From the NCBI GenBank assembly GCA_028819565.1, contig JAPPLD010000007.1, forward strand, positions 1-38,871: 38,871 bases of DNA. Direction: 5' to 3'. Shown here piece after piece: positions 2,304 through 32,539 of this stretch; the stretch's first letter is position 1; each line of letters opens with the position of its first letter. The stretch is from Gammaproteobacteria bacterium (GTDB lineage: Bacteria; Pseudomonadota; Gammaproteobacteria; Poriferisulfidales; Poriferisulfidaceae). The translations under genes were made by a program, and so were the position numbers. A model generated the notes under the pieces. The model ran no database searches, was not told where the DNA came from, and worked only from the letters and a program-made list of their open reading frames with translations.

Positions 2304-2379
2304 TCAGGTTGGCCGCTCACGCCTGGATTGACGTCTACTCTGACTTGAGCCTTTCTCGCGTTAAGACACGGATTAATTG

Positions 2380-5178
2380 ATGCGCTTGTCTTGGAACGAA
2401 GTCCGTGTCCGTGCCGCCACCTTTGCCGAAAAGTGGCAGGATGCGGCCTATGAAACGGAAGAAACGCAGAGTTTCTACAACGATTTCTTCCAGGTTTTCG
2501 GGGTTGAGCGCCGATCGGTCGCGCGTTATGAACAACATGTGAGAAAGCTTGATAACCGCTCCGGGTTTATCGATCTGTTCTGGCCCGGCGTCTTGATTGT
2601 GGAGCAGAAAAGCGTGGGGCGAGATCTATCCGAGGCTTATGGCCAAGCCGGGGAATATTTTGATGCCTTGCCCGAGCACGAGCGGCCCCGGTACATCCTA
2701 GTCAGCGATTTTCAGACTTTCGAACTTCACGATCTCGATGAGCGCGAGAAGATTTCTTTCCCCCTGAAAGAATTGCCTTCTCACGTTGAAGCATTTGGAT
2801 TTATCCTTGGCATCCAGCGTCGGGTTTTCCGGGATCAGGACCCCGCCAACATCGAGGCTTCCGAACTAGTCGGACAACTGCACGACCGAATGAAGGATGC
2901 AGGATACCGGGGCCACGATCTGGAGCGGTTCCTGGCCCGGATCGTTTTCTGCCTGTTTGCGGACGACACCGGAATCTTCGAGCCTCGCGACATCTTCCTA
3001 GACCTAATCGAATCGCGGACTAATAAAGACGGGTCAGACACCGGGTCGCGACTAACTGAATTATTCCAAATACTGGATACCCCGGAATCTGATCGCCAAA
3101 AGACACTGGACGAAGACCTAGCCCGTTTTCCCTATGTCAACGGAGACCTGTTTGACGGAGTGTTGCGAATCCCTTCGTTTGACGGAATCATGCGCGAAGC
3201 ATTGCTGGATGCCTGCCGGTTCGATTGGTCGAACATATCGCCCGCCATTTTCGGCGCATTGTTTCAGTCGGTCATGGACCCCGAGGCTCGCCACGCCGAT
3301 GGCGCGCATTACACGACGGAAGGCAACATCCTGAAGGTGATCGAACCCTTGTTCCTAGATGACCTGCGGAGTGAATTCAAACGACTGAAGTCCCGGAAAG
3401 ACCGGCGGCGGCATCCCGAGTTGATGAAGTTTCAGAAGAAACTGGGAGAAATGCGATTCTTCGACCCGGCCTGCGGATGCGGCAATTTTCTCATCATTGC
3501 CTACCGGGAATTGCGGATACTTGAGATCGAGGTGATGAAAGAAATCTATCCCAGCGGTCAACTGGATGCCTTGGCTGGCGACTTGTCCGTGATTGATGTC
3601 GATCAGTTTTACGGCATCGAGATCAACGAGTTTCCCGTCCGCGTCGCGGAAACCGCCTTGTGGATGATGGATCACATCATGAACAACCGGCTCAGCCTGG
3701 AGTTCGGGCAGACTTACGTGCGCATCCCCCTGAAGAAATCACCGCACATCCATCATGGAGATGCCTTGGAAGTTGATTGGGCTGAGTTTTGCCCACCGCA
3801 ACAGTGTTCGCACATGTTCGGCAACCCTCCATACCTAGGCGCTAAAGTCCAAACCCCGGAACAGCGCATGCAAGTGCGACACATAGCGGCTTTAGGCGGA
3901 ACCGGGGGCTCTCTTGATTACGTGTCTGCCTGGTTCATCAAGGCTGGAGAATATGTCCAGAAAAGTTCTGCCCGCATCGGCTTCGTGGCAACCAATTCGA
4001 TTACCCAAGGCGAACAAGTCGGGCAACTATGGCCGATCCTGTTCGACCGCTGCAAGCTGGAGATCGCGTTCGCGCACCGGACTTTCGCGTGGGGTTCGGA
4101 CGCACGGGGCAAGGCGCATGTGCATGTCGTGATCATCGGGCTCGACCGACGAGAGAATGCGCGGGCGAACACGCGCCTTTTCAATTATCCCGACATCAAC
4201 GACCAGCCGGAAGAAACCCGGCAGGCAGTCTTGTCGCCTTACTTGTTCGATGCCAGTGGCTTGCCAAATCCATATTTGGTGGTGCGGGAAGAGAGTTCCC
4301 CAATCAATGGAATGCCAAGGTTAAAAACCGGCGTTCAAATGATTGATAACGGAATCCTGACATTTGAAGAATCCGAAAAAGAAGAATTTCTTGCAATCGA
4401 GCCTGAGGCTGCTCCTTTCTTTCGTTGTTATATCGGCGGCGACGAATTTATTAATGGTTTTCATCGCTGGATTCTATATCTCAGAGGAATCAACCCAACC
4501 GAATTGAAACGCTTGCCACAGGTTGCGGAAAGGGTTGCCCAAGTACGTGCCTATAGAGCAGCAAGTCGGCGGCCCAGTACACGACGCATGGCCGACTTTC
4601 CGACCTTGGTCGGAGTGGATGAACGTCTCGATGCTGATCACCTGGTTATCCCAAACACAAGCTCCGAACGCCGCGCATATATACCCATTGGATGGTTGGG
4701 TCCCAGTGTCATCGCCAATCAAAAACTGCGCATCCTTCCGAATGCCTCCCTGACTGATTTCGCGCTGCTGACCTCGGCCATGCACATGGCGTGGATGCGA
4801 ACCGTAACAGGACGCATGAAAAGTGACTATATGTATTCTGTGGGTGTCGTCTACAACACTTTCCCCCTGCCGTCCCAGGAGGCTGATCTGTCCAAGCTGG
4901 AGCCCTTGGCTCAGGCCATCTTGGATGCCCGGGCTGAACATCTCGATGCGACGCTGGCCGATCTCTATGATCCGGACTTGATGCCGCCCAACCTACTCCG
5001 GGCGCATCAGGCGCTTGACCGGGCGGTGGACAAGCTTTATCGGCGCAAGGGATTCGGTTCCAAGCGCGAACGCATTGAGCACCTGTTCATGCTGTACGAA
5101 CAAGCCCAAGCGCCCCTCGAAGCTCAAACCAAGGCAAGGCCCAAGCGACGGCAAACAGGAAGCAAACTCAAAAGGTAG
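2380..5178 (+). CDS. MmeI-type (Type IIL) bifunctional restriction endonuclease/DNA methyltransferase
   Basis: The protein has 932 residues from ATG 2380 (a TTG at 2377 would add one); MmeI itself is about 920, so it looks full length. The N-terminal nuclease shows D65-x9-E75-Q-K77 (DLFWPGVLIVEQK), the D-x9-ExK arrangement of MmeI. The methyltransferase core has motif I (FFDPACGCGNFLI, Asp near 362) and motif IV (NPPY near 482-485), which is typical of adenine-N6 methylation. Target-recognition and C-terminal helical parts follow; the end is strongly basic (KARPKRRQTGSKLKR). Such enzymes cut and methylate with one polypeptide, protect by methylating one strand, and set specificity in the target-recognition domain. 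The target sequence cannot be read from the protein here. No stop or frameshift interrupts it, so it is probably functional. It follows the HepT-like gene by 76 bases. Confidence 0.9.
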   Translation: MRLSWNEVRVRAATFAEKWQDAAYETEETQSFYNDFFQVFGVERRSVARYEQHVRKLDNRSGFIDLFWPGVLIVEQKSVGRDLSEAYGQAGEYFDALPEHERPRYILVSDFQTFELHDLDEREKISFPLKELPSHVEAFGFILGIQRRVFRDQDPANIEASELVGQLHDRMKDAGYRGHDLERFLARIVFCLFADDTGIFEPRDIFLDLIESRTNKDGSDTGSRLTELFQILDTPESDRQKTLDEDLARFPYVNGDLFDGVLRIPSFDGIMREALLDACRFDWSNISPAIFGALFQSVMDPEARHADGAHYTTEGNILKVIEPLFLDDLRSEFKRLKSRKDRRRHPELMKFQKKLGEMRFFDPACGCGNFLIIAYRELRILEIEVMKEIYPSGQLDALAGDLSVIDVDQFYGIEINEFPVRVAETALWMMDHIMNNRLSLEFGQTYVRIPLKKSPHIHHGDALEVDWAEFCPPQQCSHMFGNPPYLGAKVQTPEQRMQVRHIAALGGTGGSLDYVSAWFIKAGEYVQKSSARIGFVATNSITQGEQVGQLWPILFDRCKLEIAFAHRTFAWGSDARGKAHVHVVIIGLDRRENARANTRLFNYPDINDQPEETRQAVLSPYLFDASGLPNPYLVVREESSPINGMPRLKTGVQMIDNGILTFEESEKEEFLAIEPEAAPFFRCYIGGDEFINGFHRWILYLRGINPTELKRLPQVAERVAQVRAYRAASRRPSTRRMADFPTLVGVDERLDADHLVIPNTSSERRAYIPIGWLGPSVIANQKLRILPNASLTDFALLTSAMHMAWMRTVTGRMKSDYMYSVGVVYNTFPLPSQEADLSKLEPLAQAILDARAEHLDATLADLYDPDLMPPNLLRAHQALDRAVDKLYRRKGFGSKRERIEHLFMLYEQAQAPLEAQTKARPKRRQTGSKLKR

Positions 5179-12982: not shown

Positions 12983-14380
12983 CTATCGCCCCGATACCTT
13001 TATCCAGTGATGACGGCGCTGGAACGGATAGCCCGGCAGTGAGATTCGGCGCCGTGCCTCTCCCGCGAACAGCCCCTGGAAGGAAATCGGCAGTCCCGCC
13101 TCGTACACCTCCGCCACGGCCCCCATGAATTTCCGGTAAATGTCCTCCACCGGTTCGTCACCGGACGGTTCGTGCAAGCTCGAGATCAGCGCTGGCTCCC
13201 CCGCATCTCCCGCCGATTCTGGCCAGGCAGAAGCGAGCATGGGGTCAAATGCCTCGCGCGGGCCGATTTCCACCAGCCCCTCGATTCCAAAATCCGACAG
13301 TGCCTCGGCACATTTCTTGAGTTCCGCCGGCTTGCTCGCTTGCTCGCGCCAGTATGTTGCGTCGAGTATTTCGTCGGGTCCGACCGTTCGACCCATTGTG
13401 CTGCTGATCAGAGTGATCGACGGCGGCGCGATCGCAATATCCGAGAAAATCGTTTCCAATTCATCCGCGCCACGCGCTGCCGCAAACAGCAAGCCATCCT
13501 TCAGACTAAATACTCCCGCCGCCTGCGCTGCCGCAATTTCCCCGAGATCATGGCCAATCACCGCGCTCGGGCGAACCCCCATGCTCAGCCACCATGCCGT
13601 AAGCGCGCATTCCAGCGCATAGATAGCCGGTTGTGCCCATGCCGGATCGTCCAGACTTCCTTTCGAGTCAGCTCGACCGAACATCACATCCAGCAGCGAA
13701 ACTCCCCGTTCTTCTTGAAGCCAGGCATCGCATTGATCCAGCACCACCCGTATCACCGGCTCACTCCGATACAGCGCTTCTCCCATCCCGACCCGCTGGC
13801 TGTCCTGCCCGGTGTACACGAACGCGGCTTTCGCCGCCACTCGCGGTTCCGATCCCTCGCCCGCTTCTACTAGCGCCTCCAGCCCGTCCCTCAAGGAGCC
13901 AGCATCGCTGAACACCACACCTGCGCGGTGAGTGAAATGACTTCGCCCTATCCCGGCCGTCCACGTCATATCGGCAAGCAATTGGTCTAGGGTTTCACCT
14001 TCTTCGGAAAGCTCCTCCGCGTGATCGTCGAGCCATGACCGGTATTCTCCTGCCAACTCTCCAAGTGCTGCATGCGACTTTCCGGAGAGGGGCAGGATTC
14101 TTGCCGCGCGCGGGTCGAATTCTTCTGCCCCCGTGAATACGAAGCGCAACTCATGGAATACGGCCGGAGTTTCTTTCCGCTGCTCGATCTCGATCTTGTC
14201 GCCTGTCCGAAGAAGATCATCGGCGCCGACCCCACCTTGCCGCACTCGTACCTGCCCACGCTCGACCAGCGGTCCGCCTATGAAGTGGACTACGATTTCA
14301 TCCCTGAAACGACGCATCTGCTTCAACTGGAAAAACCCGAGGAGTGCGTTGCCGTGACCCGCGAGTTTCTCGAACGCCAC
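12983..14380 (-). pseudogene. Polyketide synthase acyltransferase-domain fragment, active-site Ser replaced
   Basis: The frame is open for 465 codons, but the first 90 or so are antisense to a hydrolase fragment and look spurious. From about residue 94 (ILPLSGKSHAAL, near base 14100) it reads as a type I PKS KS-AT linker. The AT domain follows (FVYTGQDSQRVGMG, then GHDLGE) and a post-AT linker ends in LPGYPFQRRHHWI. No ketosynthase, dehydratase or carrier domain flanks it. The AT nucleophile motif GHSxGE reads GHDLGE, with Asp encoded at 13549-13547, so it cannot act as a normal AT. It lies between panC and panD. Best read as a stranded module fragment; a repurposed protein is possible because the frame stays open. 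Confidence 0.7.
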
Positions 14381-14417: not shown

Positions 14418-15263
14418 TTACAACAAGGCCGGGCCGAAACGGACGACATCCAACAACCGCACTCCCGACAACCGCGCCGCAGCCAGAATGACGAGATCCC
14501 GGTCGGTTGGGGCTGGCCGGCACAGGGAATCCGCTTCACGCACCTCGACATAGTCCGGTTCAAATCCCAACTCGACCAAGTTTTCAAGCGCCTGCCGTTG
14601 CGCCTGCTCGACATCAAGTCCGTCCTTGATTGATTCTGCGGCCGCTTCCAGGATCCGGTGCAATCCGGCAGCCTGTTCACGCGACTGGGGGTCCAGCCTT
14701 CGGTTTCGCGAACTCATGGCAAGACCGCCCGGCTCACGTACGACCGGAGCAGCGACAATTCGGATCGGCGGCTGGCATTCCGCCGCCAAGCGCCGTACCA
14801 GCGTCAATTGTTGGTAATCCTTCTCGCCGAACACGCCAACCGTCGGTGTTGTCTGGTCGAACAGCCGGCTGACTACCGCCGCCACCGCCGTCAGGTGCCC
14901 CGGGCGATACTGACCCTCCAGCACATCCGTCAAACCCGGTATCTCGAACGCCTCCAGCCGGGGAGGCTCGCCGCCCCAGATTTCCTGCTCGTCCGGGGCA
15001 TACGTCAGGTCGACTCCCGCTTGGCGCAGGCGTTCAAAGTCCTCTTCTTCTTCGCGGGGATAGTTGGCGAAATCCTCCGGGTCATCGAACTGGTGTCGGT
15101 TGACGAAAACGGTGGCCAGTACGATTCCGGGGCACTGCCGCGCATGTTCGACCAGACTCAGGTGCCCGGCGTGCAGGCCACCCATGGTCGGCACCAAGAT
15201 TCGTTCTTCGGGCTGCCGGGTCAGCGCGGCCTCAAGTTGCGCCGCCGTGCGGCACAGGATCAT
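14418..15263 (-). CDS. panC: Pantothenate synthetase
   Basis: The 281-residue product condenses pantoate and beta-alanine with ATP. Motifs are the nucleotide-binding VPTMGGLHAGHLSL (HxGH), FGEKDYQQL, and SSRN before the C-terminal domain. The usual VFVNPTQF reads VFVNRHQF. The start at 15263 overlaps the panB stop (ATGA). An open extension upstream to 15488 lies inside panB and has no PanC character. Coupled translation with panB is expected. Confidence 0.94.
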   Translation of the reverse strand: MILCRTAAQLEAALTRQPEERILVPTMGGLHAGHLSLVEHARQCPGIVLATVFVNRHQFDDPEDFANYPREEEEDFERLRQAGVDLTYAPDEQEIWGGEPPRLEAFEIPGLTDVLEGQYRPGHLTAVAAVVSRLFDQTTPTVGVFGEKDYQQLTLVRRLAAECQPPIRIVAAPVVREPGGLAMSSRNRRLDPQSREQAAGLHRILEAAAESIKDGLDVEQAQRQALENLVELGFEPDYVEVREADSLCRPAPTDRDLVILAAARLSGVRLLDVVRFGPALL

Positions 15264-16048
15264 GGGAAAGATCCGGAATGAACTGCTTCGACATAGGCCC
15301 GGACTGCATCCGCGACACCACGGCCCGAATTCATGAAACTGCGGGCGTGTTTTGGAGCCGGGTCGGTCAACCCCAACAGGTCGTACAGCACCAGGATCTG
15401 TCCGTCGCAGGCCGCGCCGGAACCGATGCCGATCACCGGGATTCCCGCTTGTTCGGTAATTTCCGCAGCCAGGTTGTCGACCACGCACTCCACCAACAGC
15501 AGGTCTGCGCCCGCTTGTTCCAGCGCGAGCGCCGTTTCCTGCAGTTCATCCGCCTCTTCAGAAGTGCGCCCGTGTCGCCGGATGCCAGTCAATTTGGTCA
15601 GGCTCTGCAGGCGAAGCCCCAGGTGCGCACAGACTGGGGTACCTTGATCGGACAGGGCGCGGACGATTTCGACCTGATCCTGGGAGGCCTCAAGTTTGAC
15701 CACCTGCGCGCCGCCCTCCTGCACCAACCGCATGGCATTGGCTTGCGCCATGGGAACATCGCAGCAACTCATATACGGCAGGTCGCTGATTAGCAGAGCG
15801 CGCTGAATGCTGCGGGCAACGCATTGCGTGTGGTAGACCATGTCGTCCATGGTCACCGGCTGAGTGTTGGGATGCCCCTGAATAACCATGCCAAGGGAGT
15901 CTCCGACCAAGATGAATTCCACTCCACATGCATCAAGCACGCGCGTGAATGTCGCATCGTAGGCCGTCAGGCCGGCAAAACGATCCCCGCCCTCCCGAGC
16001 CATCCGGTGCAGGGTATCAAGCGTTACGGAGGAATCCGGCATGCTCAT
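15260..16048 (-). CDS. panB: 3-methyl-2-oxobutanoate hydroxymethyltransferase
   Basis: The 262-residue enzyme makes ketopantoate from alpha-ketoisovalerate and methylenetetrahydrofolate. Family marks are LTAYDATFTRVLD, the metal-binding LVGDSLGMVIQGH, KLEA, and GIGSGAACDGQILV. Start is ATG 16048 or, two codons later, ATG 16042. It follows the folK fusion by two bases and overlaps panC, so pcnB-folK-panB-panC is one transcription unit. The folate-linked substrate gives a loose metabolic tie to folK. Confidence 0.95.
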   Translation of the reverse strand: MSMPDSSVTLDTLHRMAREGGDRFAGLTAYDATFTRVLDACGVEFILVGDSLGMVIQGHPNTQPVTMDDMVYHTQCVARSIQRALLISDLPYMSCCDVPMAQANAMRLVQEGGAQVVKLEASQDQVEIVRALSDQGTPVCAHLGLRLQSLTKLTGIRRHGRTSEEADELQETALALEQAGADLLLVECVVDNLAAEITEQAGIPVIGIGSGAACDGQILVLYDLLGLTDPAPKHARSFMNSGRGVADAVRAYVEAVHSGSFP

Positions 16049-16050
16049 AT

Positions 16051-17232
16051 CTACGTCATCGAGTCGGCTGGAGCCATATCATCCAGCATCCCCTCCGGTT
16101 GGCTCGGATCCAGAAAATACTGGCCGGGTTGGGTCATGCCATCCAGCGCAACCAGCAGGCTCTGGTAGTCCTGGAGGCTTTCCGCCAGATTGGCGCAGGA
16201 AGTATCGACCGTCAGCACAGTTCCAGAGTAATTGCGGAAATGTTCCGCCATCAATGCCGACAGCGCTTCCAGGAACTCTGGGCGCACCGCGCGTTCGAAC
16301 GACCGCCCCCGCATTGCGATGCGTTCCAGTAAAACTGACACCGGCGCCTGCAGGTAGATAACCAAGTCCGGACGTGGAAGCCCGGCGGACATATGAGTGT
16401 ACAAGCTAAGCCACAGGTCATATTCGTCGCCCTGAAGCGATAGTCTGGAAAACCAGTCGCTTTTCTCGAATACGTAATCCGAGAAGGTGCGCTGTTGGAA
16501 CAAATCCACCTGGTTCAATTGCTGCAACTGGCTGGCCCGACTGGTCAGGAAGTGCAACTGGGTTGCCAGCGCCGTTTTTTCAGGGGCTTCGAAAAAATCC
16601 TTGAGAAAAGGGTTTTCCTGGTAATTCTCCAGTATCAGCCGACCATTGAAATCGGCTGCCAGACGGTTGCACAACGTGGTCTTGCCGACGCCTATCGGCC
16701 CCTCCACCGCAATCAGGCGTGCCGAGTCGGGCAGGCTTTGGCAAGCCCCCACCCGATCCACCCGGGAATACTTGCACTCCCGTAGCAACTTGGAGACCGT
16801 GCCCCGCCCAGGCACCTCCAGATCCGCGTCCAGTTCCTGCAGCGGAGCCAGTACAAACGCCCGCTCATGCAGGCCCGGATGCGGCAACGTCAGGGTCTTG
16901 CTGTCAAAACGTTCCTGCCCCCACAAGAGCAGGTCCAGGTCCAATGTCCGCGATGCCCAGCGCTCGCGTTGTTCTTTTCGCCCGTGCTGACGTTCGATCG
17001 CTTGAAGTTCATGAAGCAACTGCTCGGGCTTCAGATCAGTTTCGACCTGCACGACCGCATTGATATAGTCTGGCTGGTCCAGCCCACCCATCGGCGGGCT
17101 CCGGTACAGACCCGAAGAGGCACACAGGCGGACCTGAGCAAGCTGCCCCAGTTCGCGCACCGCGGAGCGGACTTGCTCGGTTGGCCCGTCCAGATTGCTG
17201 CCGAGCCCGATGTAAATGTCTCCCCGAGACAC
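16051..17232 (-). CDS. folK: FolK (HPPK)-deoxynucleoside kinase fusion
   Basis: The 393-residue protein joins two enzymes. Residues 1 to about 160 are 6-hydroxymethyl-7,8-dihydropterin pyrophosphokinase: YIGLGSN at the start, RSPPMGGLDQPDYINAVV, and WASRTLDLDLLLWG with the catalytic Asp pair, then LPHPGLHERAFVLAPL. From about residue 170 it is a deoxynucleoside kinase of the dGK/dAK/TK2 type: P-loop VEGPIGVGKTTL, the DYVFEKSDWF motif, and a lid region with RGRSFE. The first makes a folate precursor; the second phosphorylates deoxynucleosides in salvage. No stop or frameshift separates them. pcnB lies two bases upstream and panB two bases downstream. Domain calls are strong; the kinase substrate is not decided. 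Confidence 0.9.
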   Translation of the reverse strand: MSRGDIYIGLGSNLDGPTEQVRSAVRELGQLAQVRLCASSGLYRSPPMGGLDQPDYINAVVQVETDLKPEQLLHELQAIERQHGRKEQRERWASRTLDLDLLLWGQERFDSKTLTLPHPGLHERAFVLAPLQELDADLEVPGRGTVSKLLRECKYSRVDRVGACQSLPDSARLIAVEGPIGVGKTTLCNRLAADFNGRLILENYQENPFLKDFFEAPEKTALATQLHFLTSRASQLQQLNQVDLFQQRTFSDYVFEKSDWFSRLSLQGDEYDLWLSLYTHMSAGLPRPDLVIYLQAPVSVLLERIAMRGRSFERAVRPEFLEALSALMAEHFRNYSGTVLTVDTSCANLAESLQDYQSLLVALDGMTQPGQYFLDPSQPEGMLDDMAPADSMT

Positions 17233-17234
17233 GA

Positions 17235-18539
17235 TTATCTCCGCCGACGGCGACGACGGCGTCGGGGGGTGTCGCTGGGCCCCGTTTCGTACTTTTCCTG
17301 AGCCCGTGTCCAGGCTTGGTAAGCCCCCTGCAGTCGCTCGTCCCTCAACGCGCGCAACCCGAGGAAATCATATGCCGCACGAAATGTGTTGCGCGACATC
17401 ACCCGTTCAGGGTGACCACGCGGGCCTGCTTCCAACTGCGGCTGGCGAACCCAGATCTCGCGGATCACCTGGGCATGACGAAATGGAATGCTGATGGTTC
17501 GTGCCTGATGCTCCAGGGCCCGGTCGGCGCAAATCGCAAACGCGTCGCGAGGACTGAATTCCCCCGGCTCCAGTTCATCCAGCAGTTGGCGTACATACGG
17601 CCACATCAGTACCGCGTAGGCGAAGGCCGGGGAGACCGGCATGCCTGTGCGCACCCGTTCGTCCGTATTCTCCAGTGCCAAGCGGATAAACTCCAGATCC
17701 TCCGGATGATCGCGCTCCAAGGCCGCCTCCGTGCGCGGAAACAGCTGGTGCAGCAACCCTTTTTCACGCAACAGGTCAAATGTACGCACAGCCGCGCCGC
17801 TATGCAGGAGCTTGATCCCCTCGTCGAACAGCCGGGCTGGCGAAATAGCGTCAAGCAAATCCGCCAATTCGGGGATCAGTTGCTCCATGACCGGATCCAT
17901 CTGGAAGTCGAGCTTGGCCGCAAAGCGCACCGCGCGCAGCAACCGAACCGGATCCTCGCGGAAGCGCACCGCAGGCTTGCCAATCATGCACAGGCGACGC
18001 TGCTTCAAGTCCTCCACGCCACCGACGAAGTCCAGCACGGTATTCCGGGTCGGGTCGTAGAACAGGGAGTTGGCCGTGAAATCCCGTCGCAGTGCGTCGC
18101 GATCGACTGTCCCATACGCATTGTCGCGCAGGATCCTCCCTCCCAAGGTCACCGAAACATGGGCACGCCCGGAACGCGAGCGGTGCCCACCCCGGAATGT
18201 CGCGACTTCAATCAGGTCGCGACCCACGTACACGTGCGCAAGCCGGAACCGCCGGCCGACGATGCGGCAACGGTCGAACAGGTTCTTCACCTGTTCAGGG
18301 CGGGCGTCCGTGGCGATGTCGAAGTCTTTCGGGTGCAGGCCCAGCATCAGGTCGCGCACGCTACCCCCGACGATATAGGCCTCGTAGCCTCCCTCCACCA
18401 GGACTTCCACCACGCGCCGGGCAGACCTGGAAACCTCCGAAGGATTGATGCCGTGTTCGTCGGCTTCCACGACCCGGGGATTGCCGTTGGTGCGTTTCTT
18501 TACGGCATCGGATAGGCGGTTGAATAGCTTTTTGGCCAT
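17235..18539 (-). CDS. pcnB: Poly(A) polymerase I
   Basis: The 434-residue product adds 3' poly(A) tails that target RNA for decay. It carries the nucleotidyltransferase head with GGSVRDLMLGLHPKDFDIAT (catalytic Asp pair), then RRDFTANSLFY, FVGGVEDLK, and RFREDPVRLLRAVRFAAKL, which are the hallmarks separating bacterial PAP/CCA enzymes. E. coli-like PAP I features include the N-terminal basic stretch and a C-terminal run of nine Arg residues. The Arg codons form a GC-rich simple-sequence stretch at 17238-17264. It heads the pcnB-folK-panB-panC unit. Confidence 0.93.
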   Translation of the reverse strand: MAKKLFNRLSDAVKKRTNGNPRVVEADEHGINPSEVSRSARRVVEVLVEGGYEAYIVGGSVRDLMLGLHPKDFDIATDARPEQVKNLFDRCRIVGRRFRLAHVYVGRDLIEVATFRGGHRSRSGRAHVSVTLGGRILRDNAYGTVDRDALRRDFTANSLFYDPTRNTVLDFVGGVEDLKQRRLCMIGKPAVRFREDPVRLLRAVRFAAKLDFQMDPVMEQLIPELADLLDAISPARLFDEGIKLLHSGAAVRTFDLLREKGLLHQLFPRTEAALERDHPEDLEFIRLALENTDERVRTGMPVSPAFAYAVLMWPYVRQLLDELEPGEFSPRDAFAICADRALEHQARTISIPFRHAQVIREIWVRQPQLEAGPRGHPERVMSRNTFRAAYDFLGLRALRDERLQGAYQAWTRAQEKYETGPSDTPRRRRRRRRR

Positions 18540-29174: not shown

Positions 29175-29188
29175 TTATGTAGCAAAAT
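29175..29188 (+). repeat. Terminal inverted repeat, left copy
   Basis: TTATGTAGCAAAAT on the plus strand, matching 14 of 14 with the right copy. It contains the tnpB stop codon, read on the minus strand. GCAAG at 29191-29195 extends the match after two mismatches. Confidence 0.7.
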
Positions 29189-30506
29189 CCGCAAGGGATT
29201 CATTGCTCATTTCTTGACGCTTCCTAGGCCGACTGTGGCAGGATGCCCCGCCGGTGTCGCCGCCTCCACGTCCAGTCGCCCCATTCCCGAAGGCCAAAAC
29301 GTTCAATGCGGCATTCACGTCCGCATCGTCCGTGTGCCCGCAAGCGGTGCACTTGAAGTCTGAATCCTTTCTGTTGTCCTTGTCGACATGCCCGCACCGG
29401 TGGCAGGTCTGGCTGGTGTACGCCGGGTCGACATGGCGGACTTCCATCTTGTAGCTCAGGCACAACTCCAGCGTGCCCCATGCGCTGGCCAGGATCTGCC
29501 GGTTCAGGCCTGACTTCGCACCAACGTTCTTGCCAGGCTTCTGTTTCGTGCCCCGGGCCGATTTCGTCATGCCCCGGATGTTCAGCTTCTCCACGTAGGC
29601 GACATCGTATTCGGAGGCGATGGCCTTGCTGACGTGGTGCCCCCAGTTCTTCCGGGCGAAGCGCTCTGCCGCGCAAGCCCTTTGGTGCTTGATCTGGGTC
29701 CGCAGATACCGCTTGGAGGGCTGATAGCGTGATCGGTCGTGAGGCTTCGGCCCGCAGAGATTCTTTTGATCCTTCCAATAGACCTCGCGCTTGCGCGCCA
29801 TCGACCGCTCATACCGCTTGCGCTTGGCCACTTTCCGTTCCAGGTCCGGCCCGCCGTGCTTGGTCCCGTCCGACAGGACCGCCAGCCGGCCCTCGGCGAT
29901 GTTGCGGTCGATCCCCACCTCCTTGATGGAATGAGGAAGGCTGGCTTGTGCGTCCACTTCGTACACCAGGTAGGCGTACCAGTTGCCGCATTCGTACTTG
30001 ACCGTGCCGGACCTGAACTCGCCGTCCGGGTACGGGTTGTTGCCGACCAACTTTATCCAGCCGACCTTCTGCACGTACAGGCTGTCGCCGGATACCTTGG
30101 CCGATACGTAATTGATGGGGAAACTCGGCGTGGTCGTCCACTTGCCGTGGAACTGTGGCGGCTTGCGGTTAAGTTTCCCACCCGTTTCCAAGTCCTTGAA
30201 GAATGCCTGGTAAGTCCTCTCGATGGGCTGCAGTGAACTCTTGACGATGTATGCCGAATAGCCCTGCAACCACGGATAGCTGTGTTTCCTAAGTACCGTG
30301 AAAGTCCGGCCCAGCCCCGGCGTCGGGACATTTTTTGTGGACATGTAGGAGAAGTTGCAGGTGCCCCACGCTTCATACTCGTCCCGGAGCTTCCCGACCA
30401 TGTGGTTCCAGACGAACCGGCAGGCCCCGGCGGTGCCGTGCAGTTGCTGGTTCTTTCTTACAGAACCCGGATGTAGGCGGTATCGGACGGCGCGGTGGGC
30501 TTTCAT
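29175..30506 (-). CDS. tnpB: TnpB (IS605 OrfB-like) RNA-guided nuclease-type transposon protein
   Basis: The 443-residue protein (from ATG 30506; an ATG at 30527 lies in the repeat) has the TnpB RuvC core. Numbered from 30527, it shows Asp207 in EVGIDRN, Glu313 in [10 protein letters not shown], and Asp403 in [10 protein letters not shown] zinc ribbon of two CxxC pairs (CHRCG at 375-379, CTACG at 393-397) lies between. All catalytic positions are kept, so nuclease activity is plausible. TnpB proteins are guided by an omega RNA from the 3' end of the gene and element; here a Gly-rich then basic tail overlaps that region. It is on the same strand as tkt and gap and may be co-transcribed with them. 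Confidence 0.9.
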
Positions 30507-32539
30507 TTTAGAATTATACTCTTGCATATTTTGCTACATAAATCCCTCAAATTTTCTACAGTAAATCCGAAGTGTTCCATCACCCGGGCGCCCGGTGCCG
30601 AATGGCCGAATTCCTCAACCCCCAACACGTGTCCTTGTGGTCCTATCCAGCGGTGCCACGGCGCGCTAACGCCCGCCTCAACTGCAATCCGAGCAGAAAC
30701 CTCGCTCGGCAGGACTTGTTCCTGGTAGCCCGAATCCTGTCGGGCAAACTGTTCCATGCAGGGCATCGACACGACCCGTGTCCGGATTCCGTCCAGAGCC
30801 GCGGCACATTCGACGGCCAGCCCGACTTCGGACCCGGTGGCAAGCAAAATCAGTTCCGGCGGGCCGTCCGAATCCACCAGCACGTATCCACCGCGCGCGG
30901 ATAGCGCGACAGTCTCCGGAGTATGCTCCAGTTGCGCCACGGACTGGCGCGACAGCGCCAACGCAGTCGGCCCATTCCCGGGCTGCAGCGCACACTTCCA
31001 AGCGACTGCGGTCTCCACGGCATCGGCCGGTCGCCAGACTTCGAGCCCCGGAATCAGCCTGAGACTCGCCAGATGCTCCACCGCCTGGTGGGTCGGACCG
31101 TCCTCGCCCAGGCCGATGGAATCGTGCGTCAGGACGAAAATCACCCGTTGGTGCATCAGCGCCGCCATGCGGATAGAGTTTCGGGCGTAATCGGAGAACG
31201 TCAGGAAGGTTCCGCCATACGGGATGAACCCGCCGTGCAGGGCCAAACCGTTCATCACCGCCCCCATGCCGAACTCCCGGACCCCGTAGTAGATGTAGGT
31301 GCCAGATTCGTCTGCGCTAATCGCGCGGCTGCCCTTGGGTTGGGTGTTGTTGGACCCGGTCAGATCCGCCGAACCGCCGATCAATTCCGGCAGGCTGCCG
31401 GCAATCGCATCCAGGGTGTTTCCCGAATGCTTGCGGGTTGCCGCTTTCGCCGGCTCCATCAGCTGGTTCTTGATATGGGCGTCAATCGCTTCCGTGAACG
31501 CCTCAGGCAAGTCGCCTTCCAGGCGCCGGGCCAGCTCGGCTGCATCCTCCGGGCAACTGGCGGCATAGTCCTCCATGCTCGCCTGCCATTGGGATTCCAT
31601 CTCCGCGCCCTTCTCCCGGGCATCCCAGGCTTCGCGGATCTCGGCCGGAACCTCGAAAGGAGGATGGGGCCAGTCCAGAGTCTCTCGCGCCCGCGCCACT
31701 TCTTCGGCGCCAAGCGGAGCGCCATGCGTGTCTGCAGTGCCCTGCTTCTGCGGTGCGCCATAACCGATCACGGTCCGGCAGCAAAGAAACGACGGCCGGG
31801 GGTCGGCCTGGGCCTCGCGGATGGCCTGATCCACCGCTTCCGGATCATGCCCGTCGATGTCCGGGATTACGTGCCAGCCGTAGGCGGAAAAGCGCCCGGC
31901 CGTATCGTCGGTGAACCAGCCTTTGGTTTCGCCGTCGATCGAGATGCCGTTGTCGTCGTAGAACACGATCAGTTTGCCCAGGCGGAGCGTGCCGGCCAGG
32001 CTGCACGCCTCGTGCGAGACGCCTTCCATCAGGCATCCGTCACCCGCAAACACATAAGTCCGGTGGTTGACAACCTCATGCCCGTCACGGTTGTAGCGGT
32101 CACCCAGCAACCGTTCCGCCAGCGCCATTCCGACCGCATTGGCCAGCCCCTGGCCCAGCGGGCCGGTCGTCGTTTCGACCCCGATGTCCCGATCAAGCTC
32201 CGGGTGCCCGGGCGTGCGCGAGTGCAGTTGGCGGAAAGCCTGAAGTTCTTCCATTGACAGCGGATACCCGGTCAGGTGCAACAAGCTGTACAGCAGCATG
32301 GAGCCGTGCCCGTTGGAGACCACGAAGCGGTCCCGGTCCGGCCAGCCGGGGTTGGCAGGGTTGTGCTTGAGGTGTCGACGCCACAGGACTTCCGCGATAT
32401 CCGCCATTCCCATCGGCATGCCGGGATGGCCGGAAGCGGCCTGTTCGACAGCATCCATGCTCAACGCCCGGATGGCGTTGGCCAGCGTTCGCGGTGCAGG
32501 CATCGGCCCGGAAGAAGAAGGGTTTTCAGGTGGGGTCAT
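30503..32539 (-). CDS. tkt: Transketolase, C-terminus altered by element insertion
   Basis: The 678-residue enzyme moves two-carbon units in the pentose phosphate (or Calvin) pathway. Thiamine-diphosphate sites are seen in [13 protein letters not shown] and the following [25 protein letters not shown] near residue 38, [18 protein letters not shown] and [10 protein letters not shown]-type end motifs (here [13 protein letters not shown]) are typical. The last dozen residues ([12 protein letters not shown]) are encoded by the TnpB element, replacing the usual short tail. The catalytic core is complete, so activity is probably retained. It starts the glycolytic unit. The upstream gap (32540-32716) has a good promoter only on the other strand. 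Confidence 0.94.
30528..30541 (-). repeat. Terminal inverted repeat, right copy
   Basis: Read on the minus strand this is TTATGTAGCAAAAT, identical to the left copy. GCAAG follows after two mismatched bases. It lies in frame at the end of tkt, starting at the Leu codon TTA. Confidence 0.7.

Follow-up and report, generated by a model that had tools for sequence, protein, structure and literature searches.

Within the window, the whole stretch of 38,871 nucleotides that was analysed, a single open frame encodes an HPPK (FolK) domain followed by a kinase domain of the deoxynucleoside kinase (dNK) family. The product is probably a bifunctional HPPK/kinase chain, with both activities putative, that arose from a conserved folate-kinase-pantothenate gene cluster. 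The frame, folK1-dNK, occupies positions 16051 to 17232 of the minus strand and extends from a GTG start to a TAG stop over 393 residues; the plus-strand reading of the same interval is interrupted by stops. Comparison with Pfam placed an HPPK domain (PF01288) at residues 7-135 with an E value of 4.3e-39 (133.9 bits against a curated cut-off of 25.7) and a dNK domain (PF01712) at residues 174-359 with an E value of 1.6e-26 (93.8 bits against a curated cut-off of 27). Gaps of only 2 nt separate pcnB from the fused gene and the fused gene from panB. The preliminary description, in which a folate enzyme and a kinase share one 393-residue chain set between pcnB and panB, is borne out by the single frame, the two Pfam domains and the short gap on each side. 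The features of the locus are as follows.

16051..17232, minus strand: fused gene folK1-dNK, 393 aa (open reading frame, Pfam and genus comparison)
16828..17214, minus strand: HPPK (FolK) domain, residues 7-135 (Pfam; E. coli-equivalent residues kept)
16717..16773, minus strand: linker, residues 154-172 (low model confidence; gap-free genus alignment)
16156..16713, minus strand: dNK-family kinase domain, residues 174-359 (Pfam and fold comparison)
16678..16701, minus strand: P-loop GPIGVGKT, residues 178-185 (sequence motif)
16459..16479, minus strand: DYVFEKS, residues 252-258, at the (D/E)-R-S site in the profile register
17235..18539, minus strand: pcnB, upstream of the fused gene (Pfam, PcnB)
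15260..16048, minus strand: panB, downstream of the fused gene (Pfam, PanB)
14418..15263, minus strand: panC, beyond panB (Pfam, Pantoate_ligase; the open reading frame extends to 15488)

Given that the Pantoate_ligase domain begins only at residue 80 of the open frame 14418-15488, the true start of panC is probably the ATG near 15263. The genome that carries the window (G000; 1.8 Mb, 96.67% complete) contains one dNK match and two HPPK matches.

An AlphaFold2 model of the chain, built from 53 alignment rows, had a mean pLDDT of 84.9 with its lowest block, at 56, in linker residues 161-170; at a pTM of 0.64, the placement of the domains relative to each other is uncertain. Structural comparison with VIA-align matched residues 2-162 to HPPK structures with Z scores of about 25, and residues from about 170 to 369 to Giardia deoxyadenosine kinase (Z 22.8, rmsd 2.2, 195 residues aligned), human dCK (Z 22.0) and Mycoplasma mycoides dAK (Z 21.6). 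The predicted structure is one of two ordinary folds with a flexible joint, in which the linker would connect two independently folded domains.

Conservation, origin and recurrence of the fusion

Genomes from the window's order were searched (20 genomes, 18 with a match), and the fusion was unbroken in all six genomes of the genus, a lineage of sponge symbionts called Candidatus Porisulfidus in the annotation of close relatives. The fused proteins of the other five are 65-98% identical to the window protein. The linker aligned without gaps across the six proteins; among the five closer pairs, it differed by zero to three non-synonymous changes, with dN/dS values of 0-0.24 in those pairs and 0.34 against the divergent genome G016. 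Synonymous changes are numerous, whereas the protein is conserved. Where dS was usable (five pairs), dN/dS ranged from 0.066 to 0.090 for HPPK and from 0.020 to 0.053 for dNK; between the window and G016 it was 0.092 for the dNK half at a dS of 2.2 and undefined for the HPPK half, where dS was saturated. The C-terminal tail was less constrained (0.24-0.56 where defined). Ratios of this order indicate that purifying selection is acting on both halves.

When the fused protein was used as a query, 472 loci were retrieved from other species, and the best 79 of these were considered. Four belong to the genus and all are fused. The 75 loci outside the genus comprise 70 with separate adjacent genes, a single fused one (L030, putatively Planctomycetota) and four in which no dNK was found. 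In 22 of the 70 separate pairs, both genes share a frame and a stop divides them; in the other 48, the frames differ. Separate gammaproteobacterial folK and dNK genes resemble the window locus in gene order and in both proteins (36-59% identity to the window query over the best segment) but yield two chains in place of one.

The separate state of these 70 pairs is what would be expected if an error of sequencing or assembly had deleted a stop between two genes in the window, and the preliminary description had looked to relatives with such a stop as the sign of an error. Relatives of that kind were found, but the error was not: a frame that is unbroken in six of six genus genomes, with a gap-free linker that differs so little among the closer pairs, leaves it a negligible probability, and sequencing error was ruled out. 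With the genus uniformly fused and 70 of the 75 outside loci separate, separation by a stop is instead taken as the ancestral state. Residue 161 is encoded by ATG or GTG in five of the six genus genomes, so a separate kinase chain from an internal start at this codon is possible; G016 has ATT there and TTG six codons further on.

A dNK match was present in 151 of 274 sampled gammaproteobacterial genomes. Among the matches listed, dNK frames of at least 340 aa that exceeded the cut-off occurred in 14 genomes, and only in G000 and G017 was the frame shared with an HPPK match; in nine of the 14, again among the matches listed, the HPPK frame differed in length, and G284, which was read, has separate genes. 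The long frame of G068 holds a double dNK, and in G206 a single frame likewise carries both of these matches, again among the matches listed. The G068 gene (L118:2237-3637) encodes a 466-aa tandem protein, each domain of which has a standard DR[ST] motif, and in G206 (C7:21323-22657) the frame is 472 aa long. Within 398 Pseudomonadota genomes, two further long dNK frames over the cut-off (G840 and G996) proved to be separate genes, with no fusion. Among plasmid records, no match extended over 80% of the query. Judged from the sequences compared, the fusion is the derived state of an old pair of neighbours.

The survey of the fusion across genomes that the preliminary description had proposed found it in the six genus genomes, in G013 and in 12 Planctomycetota genomes. 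G013 belongs to the same order but to another family; its folK and dNK are joined by a linker of ∼64 residues, and its contig terminates within the kinase frame. Ala, Gln, Arg and Asp abound in the G013 linker (L103:2788-2979), which is partly made up of repeated QDRPAHAA-like units. A family-mate, G014, has separate overlapping genes. In the phylum of G291 (putatively Planctomycetota), dNK matches over the cut-off were present in 41 of 392 genomes. The loci of 34 of the 41 were read, and 12 were fused; the over-cut-off frames of the remaining seven are shorter than 300 aa and therefore too short for a fusion. panC was found in all of the 12 fused loci but one, L121, and pcnB gave no match in any of the 12. 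HPPK-dNK fusions are also annotated in Bacteroidota. In those parts of the literature that were searched, no earlier description of a folK-dNK fusion was found; “nucleoside kinase” and “pcnB” do not occur in the main text of PMC4814558, nor does “nucleoside kinase” in the available part of PMC1971073.

A quick tree was built from 112 kinase domains reduced from 172 distinct ones. On this tree, the fused label requires at least five changes of state, four of which are forced by starred branches, and the fused groups are the genus, G013, G352, G615 and a Planctomycetota clade of 10 with a support of only 85. The genus stem is long, at 0.87 changes per column. The changes of state may be gains or losses, gain being the simpler reading in Gammaproteobacteria because the separate state is so common there. 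The dNK of L071, a locus labelled “Halobacteria archaeon,” falls inside Gammaproteobacteria on the tree, and the entry is probably mislabelled or from a mixed bin.

Neighbouring gene pairs were compared over 202 loci, duplicates included and many of them obtained with folK or dNK queries. A single frame was observed for folK-dNK in 31 of 171 cases, against none of 105 for pcnB-folK, none of 107 for dNK-panB and none of 88 for panB-panC; given the duplicates, the choice of loci by folK and dNK queries and the unmatched pcnB of the 12 Planctomycetota loci, the pairs are unequally exposed, and the contrast is only suggestive of folK-dNK fusing more often than its neighbours.

These observations bear on a neutral origin, in which two closely spaced genes that were translated together became one by loss of a stop or by a frameshift, with no functional link between their products. 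Such an origin has a considerable chance of being correct, somewhat below an even one. It would follow easily from the close or overlapping arrangement in relatives, where 22 of the 70 separate pairs share a frame that a stop interrupts and the other 48 differ in frame, and is in keeping with the low model confidence of the linker and with the fact that the HPPK and dNK reactions have no common substrate. Against it stand the five changes of state needed on the tree and the excess of folK-dNK single frames over those of neighbouring pairs, although this control is unequally exposed. Recurrent fusion of the same two genes is a classic sign of a common role; to our knowledge, however, HPPK and deoxynucleoside kinases are not connected by any pathway. 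In the reading that we favour, that of a bifunctional chain, folK1 and the neighbouring dNK-family gene would have been joined in frame inside a pcnB-folK-dNK-panB-panC cluster of the type common among the retrieved gammaproteobacterial relatives.

The HPPK half and the second FolK

All six fused proteins of the genus keep the E. coli-equivalent residues N10, Q50, Y53, N55, E77, R82, W89, R92, D95, D97, H115, R121 and F123, so that the Mg, ATP and pterin residues (R82, R92, D95, D97, H115, Y53, N55 and F123) are retained throughout. Among the contact residues, T42S, L45M and Y116P are present in all six, R110 is replaced in all six, and R84E and R88H are found in five and three, respectively. 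The N-terminal half is predicted to be the cell's canonical HPPK, which would convert 6-hydroxymethyl-7,8-dihydropterin, with ATP, to its pyrophosphate.

The second HPPK gene of the genome directly follows folB, and genes for an SDR and for a pterin-4a-carbinolamine dehydratase lie nearby. Its product, FolK2, was read in five genus genomes and carries the changes Q50D, Y53F, W89F, H115R and R121H. For the folB-linked FolK at L002:1327-1968 (minus strand), H115R and R121H make an altered activity possible.

A similar pair of genes has been described in Acinetobacter baylyi, where, in the available part of PMC4814558, a PanB-FolK link is published, the FolK1 gene lies beside panB and a second folK lies beside folB, and the folB-linked copy is divergent, with altered positions R92 and F123. 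The window genome likewise has one folK by panB and the other by folB, and in both organisms, FolK1 has canonical catalytic residues and the folB-linked copy is divergent (available part of PMC4814558). Two differences are apparent against the same part of that source: the window FolK1 bears a C-terminal kinase domain, unlike A. baylyi FolK1, and FolK2 is changed here at positions 50, 53, 89, 115 and 121 rather than at R92 and F123.

HPPK is also joined to a second enzyme, as here, in the Francisella HPPK-DHPS protein (FolK-FolP; PDB 3mco and 4pzv) and in FolB-FolK (PDB 2cg8), and the HPPK half of the model matched the FolK-FolP and FolB-FolK fusion structures with Z scores of 24.2 and 21.9, respectively. 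The partners in those proteins catalyze adjacent steps of one pathway, whereas the dNK-like kinase is no known folate enzyme.

The kinase half and the branch to which it belongs

G178 and K184 of the P-loop, D252 and the LID arginine R308 are present in all 19 fused kinases. Solved dNKs in the alignment contain a (D/E)-R-(S/T) motif. When (D/E)R[STPH] was sought in the central part of the kinase domain irrespective of alignment register, 12 of 17 distinct kinases that lack an upstream HPPK contained it, as did only one of 155 distinct folK-linked kinases (136 adjacent and 19 fused), namely L153, where it stands at a later place; in this contrast, linked kinases had supplied the search model, the sample came mostly from folK-linked queries, five of the 17 unlinked rows also lack the motif, and some “unlinked” labels may reflect short flanks. 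The standard (D/E)-R-(S/T) motif was found at its usual place in none of the 155. In the family alignment, all 155 have D-[F/Y/H] at positions 252-253, and nearly all have Lys or Arg at 257. The rows of L118 (both domains), L191, L192 and L200 have a standard (D/E)R motif that is out of register in the HMM alignment. Because the motif is absent from its usual place in 155 linked kinases and present in 12 of 17 unlinked ones, the folK-linked kinases appear, by their sequences, to form a branch of their own within the dNK family.

The exact correspondence depends on the alignment used. Profile-profile alignment placed D252-F/Y253 on the D-R of the motif and D258 on the later Asp, and strand 249-251 of the model immediately precedes D252. 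In this register, the window kinase has Y253 where the motif Arg is expected, K257, and S258 in place of the conserved Asp. When the window sequence alone was aligned with phmmer and hhalign, D252 was instead placed on the later Asp. The window sequence lacks (D/E)-R in either case, with D252-Y253 at the site in the profile-profile register and Q246-Q247 in the single-sequence register.

Position D258 corresponds, in the profile register, to the Asp/Ala site six residues after the D/E of solved dNKs, which we take to be D133 of dCK in the base-reading Gln/Arg/Asp triad; Q225 and R232 presumably match dCK Q97 and R104, as their spacing suggests. The window kinase keeps the Gln and Arg of the triad (Q225 and R232), and its third member is S258 in the profile register or D252 in the single-sequence register. 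Loss of a near-invariant Asp in the genus would be a register-dependent claim, and base preference may be shifted there.

At positions conserved in more than 90% of 101 other rows, which include duplicates and fused Planctomycetota, the genus carries D258S, A262S, Y274W and Y328M (six of six) and Y214F (five of six); at L260W, the residue is Leu in 84 of the 101. Q225 is kept in 151 of 153 separate kinases and R232 in 150 of 153, and each is kept in 11 of 19 fused ones. All three triad positions are altered in one fused clade of Planctomycetota (eight sequences; E225, S232 and S/A258). The idea that fused kinases tend to lack an acidic residue at 258 was considered (14 of 19 fused against three of 153 separate kinases, the three all from one clade) and is not claimed as an effect of fusion: on the tree, the loss amounts to three changes, two of them fused clades, and an independent-pairs test gave a median p of 1 with too few pairs for significance.

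Compared with M. mycoides dAK, Giardia dAK and human dCK, the window kinase is alike in fold, P-loop, Q225, R232 and R308. Those enzymes have the motif Arg where the folK-linked kinases have an aromatic residue or His, and the window kinase differs further in its fusion to HPPK and in S258 for Asp. The label of dGK/dAK-type kinase given in the preliminary description holds for the family, as PF01712 and the fold attest, but not for a standard dGK/dAK, since its branch lacks the standard (D/E)-R motif. Among the specificity residues that it had suggested comparing, the window kinase keeps Q225 and R232, and the motif is missing from its place in every linked kinase. Given the missing motif and the change of Asp to Ser in the genus, normal dNK activity is not to be assumed.

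The C-terminal half would be a P-loop kinase of the folK-linked dNK branch. Its most likely function is the phosphorylation of a deoxynucleoside in salvage, and its preference for a particular base may be a shifted one in the genus. The two activities, HPPK and kinase, appear likely from the residues and domains described; both activities, the kinase substrate and any benefit of the fusion are points that we infer.

Candidate roles of the fused chain

TK1 gave no match in any of the six genus genomes. ThyA was found in all six and the large RNR subunit in five, the miss being G016, which is 76% complete. Given that ThyA and RNR are present, the kinase would add to de novo dNTP synthesis rather than replace it. 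ThyA consumes methylene-THF in thymidylate synthesis, and this use, together with the recurrence of the folK-dNK fusion and the single dNK match in a genome from a genus in which TK1 gave no match, is what can be said for the view of the preliminary description that the fusion coordinates folate and one-carbon supply with deoxynucleotide salvage. The view seems unlikely to be right: no intermediate is common to both reactions, the de novo genes are present, and the recurring neighbours panB and panC fit the published PanB-FolK link better (available part of PMC4814558). Regulatory coupling of folate to DNA precursors is possible but unsupported. Under the favoured bifunctional reading, the fusion would fix the synthesis of the two domains at 1:1, rather than serve metabolite channelling.

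The substrate of the folK-linked kinases may alternatively be an alcohol linked to folate or pantothenate, such as a pterin set free when PanB damages methylene-THF; we regard this as distinctly improbable. The D-[F/Y/H] pair of all 155 linked kinases, the motif contrast with unlinked ones (12 of 17 against a single, later-placed case) and the position of folK-dNK by panB or panC in two phyla favour such a substrate. The fold and most of the pocket, however, are dNK-like, with Q225 and R232 nearly invariant in separate kinases and kept in 11 of 19 fused ones, and the motif contrast comes from a largely folK-linked sample in which five of 17 unlinked rows also lack (D/E)R. In its fullest form, which we hold to be just as doubtful, the active site (D-aromatic-x-x-x-K) would be rewired for a metabolite of FolK, PanB and PanC, and the repeated fusions of FolK beside panB in the genus lineage and with panC in 11 of 12 Planctomycetota loci would mark a folate-repair enzyme.

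A more interesting lead than coordination is the folK-linked kinase branch itself. The linkage of folK, kinase and panB or panC in two phyla, the odd motif and the altered Asp raise the question of what the kinase phosphorylates. If the substrate is a deoxynucleoside, many bacteria own a salvage enzyme whose substrate range has been assumed; a substrate related to pterins or pantoate would instead reveal a missing step of folate repair or vitamin synthesis.

Three other genes of the window were noted. The 933-aa product of positions 2377-5178 (plus strand) is a restriction-modification protein of the MmeI family and has five MmeI domains. A lone PKS-type acyltransferase piece lies at 12983-14380 (minus strand), where the best stretch of Acyl_transf_1 covers model positions 2-117 of 319; GHDLG was seen by eye in this piece, at the site for which we take GHSxG to be the usual motif. 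A TnpB-like IS605 OrfB protein is encoded at 29175-30527 (minus strand), between transketolase-like and GAPDH-like genes that were named by eye.
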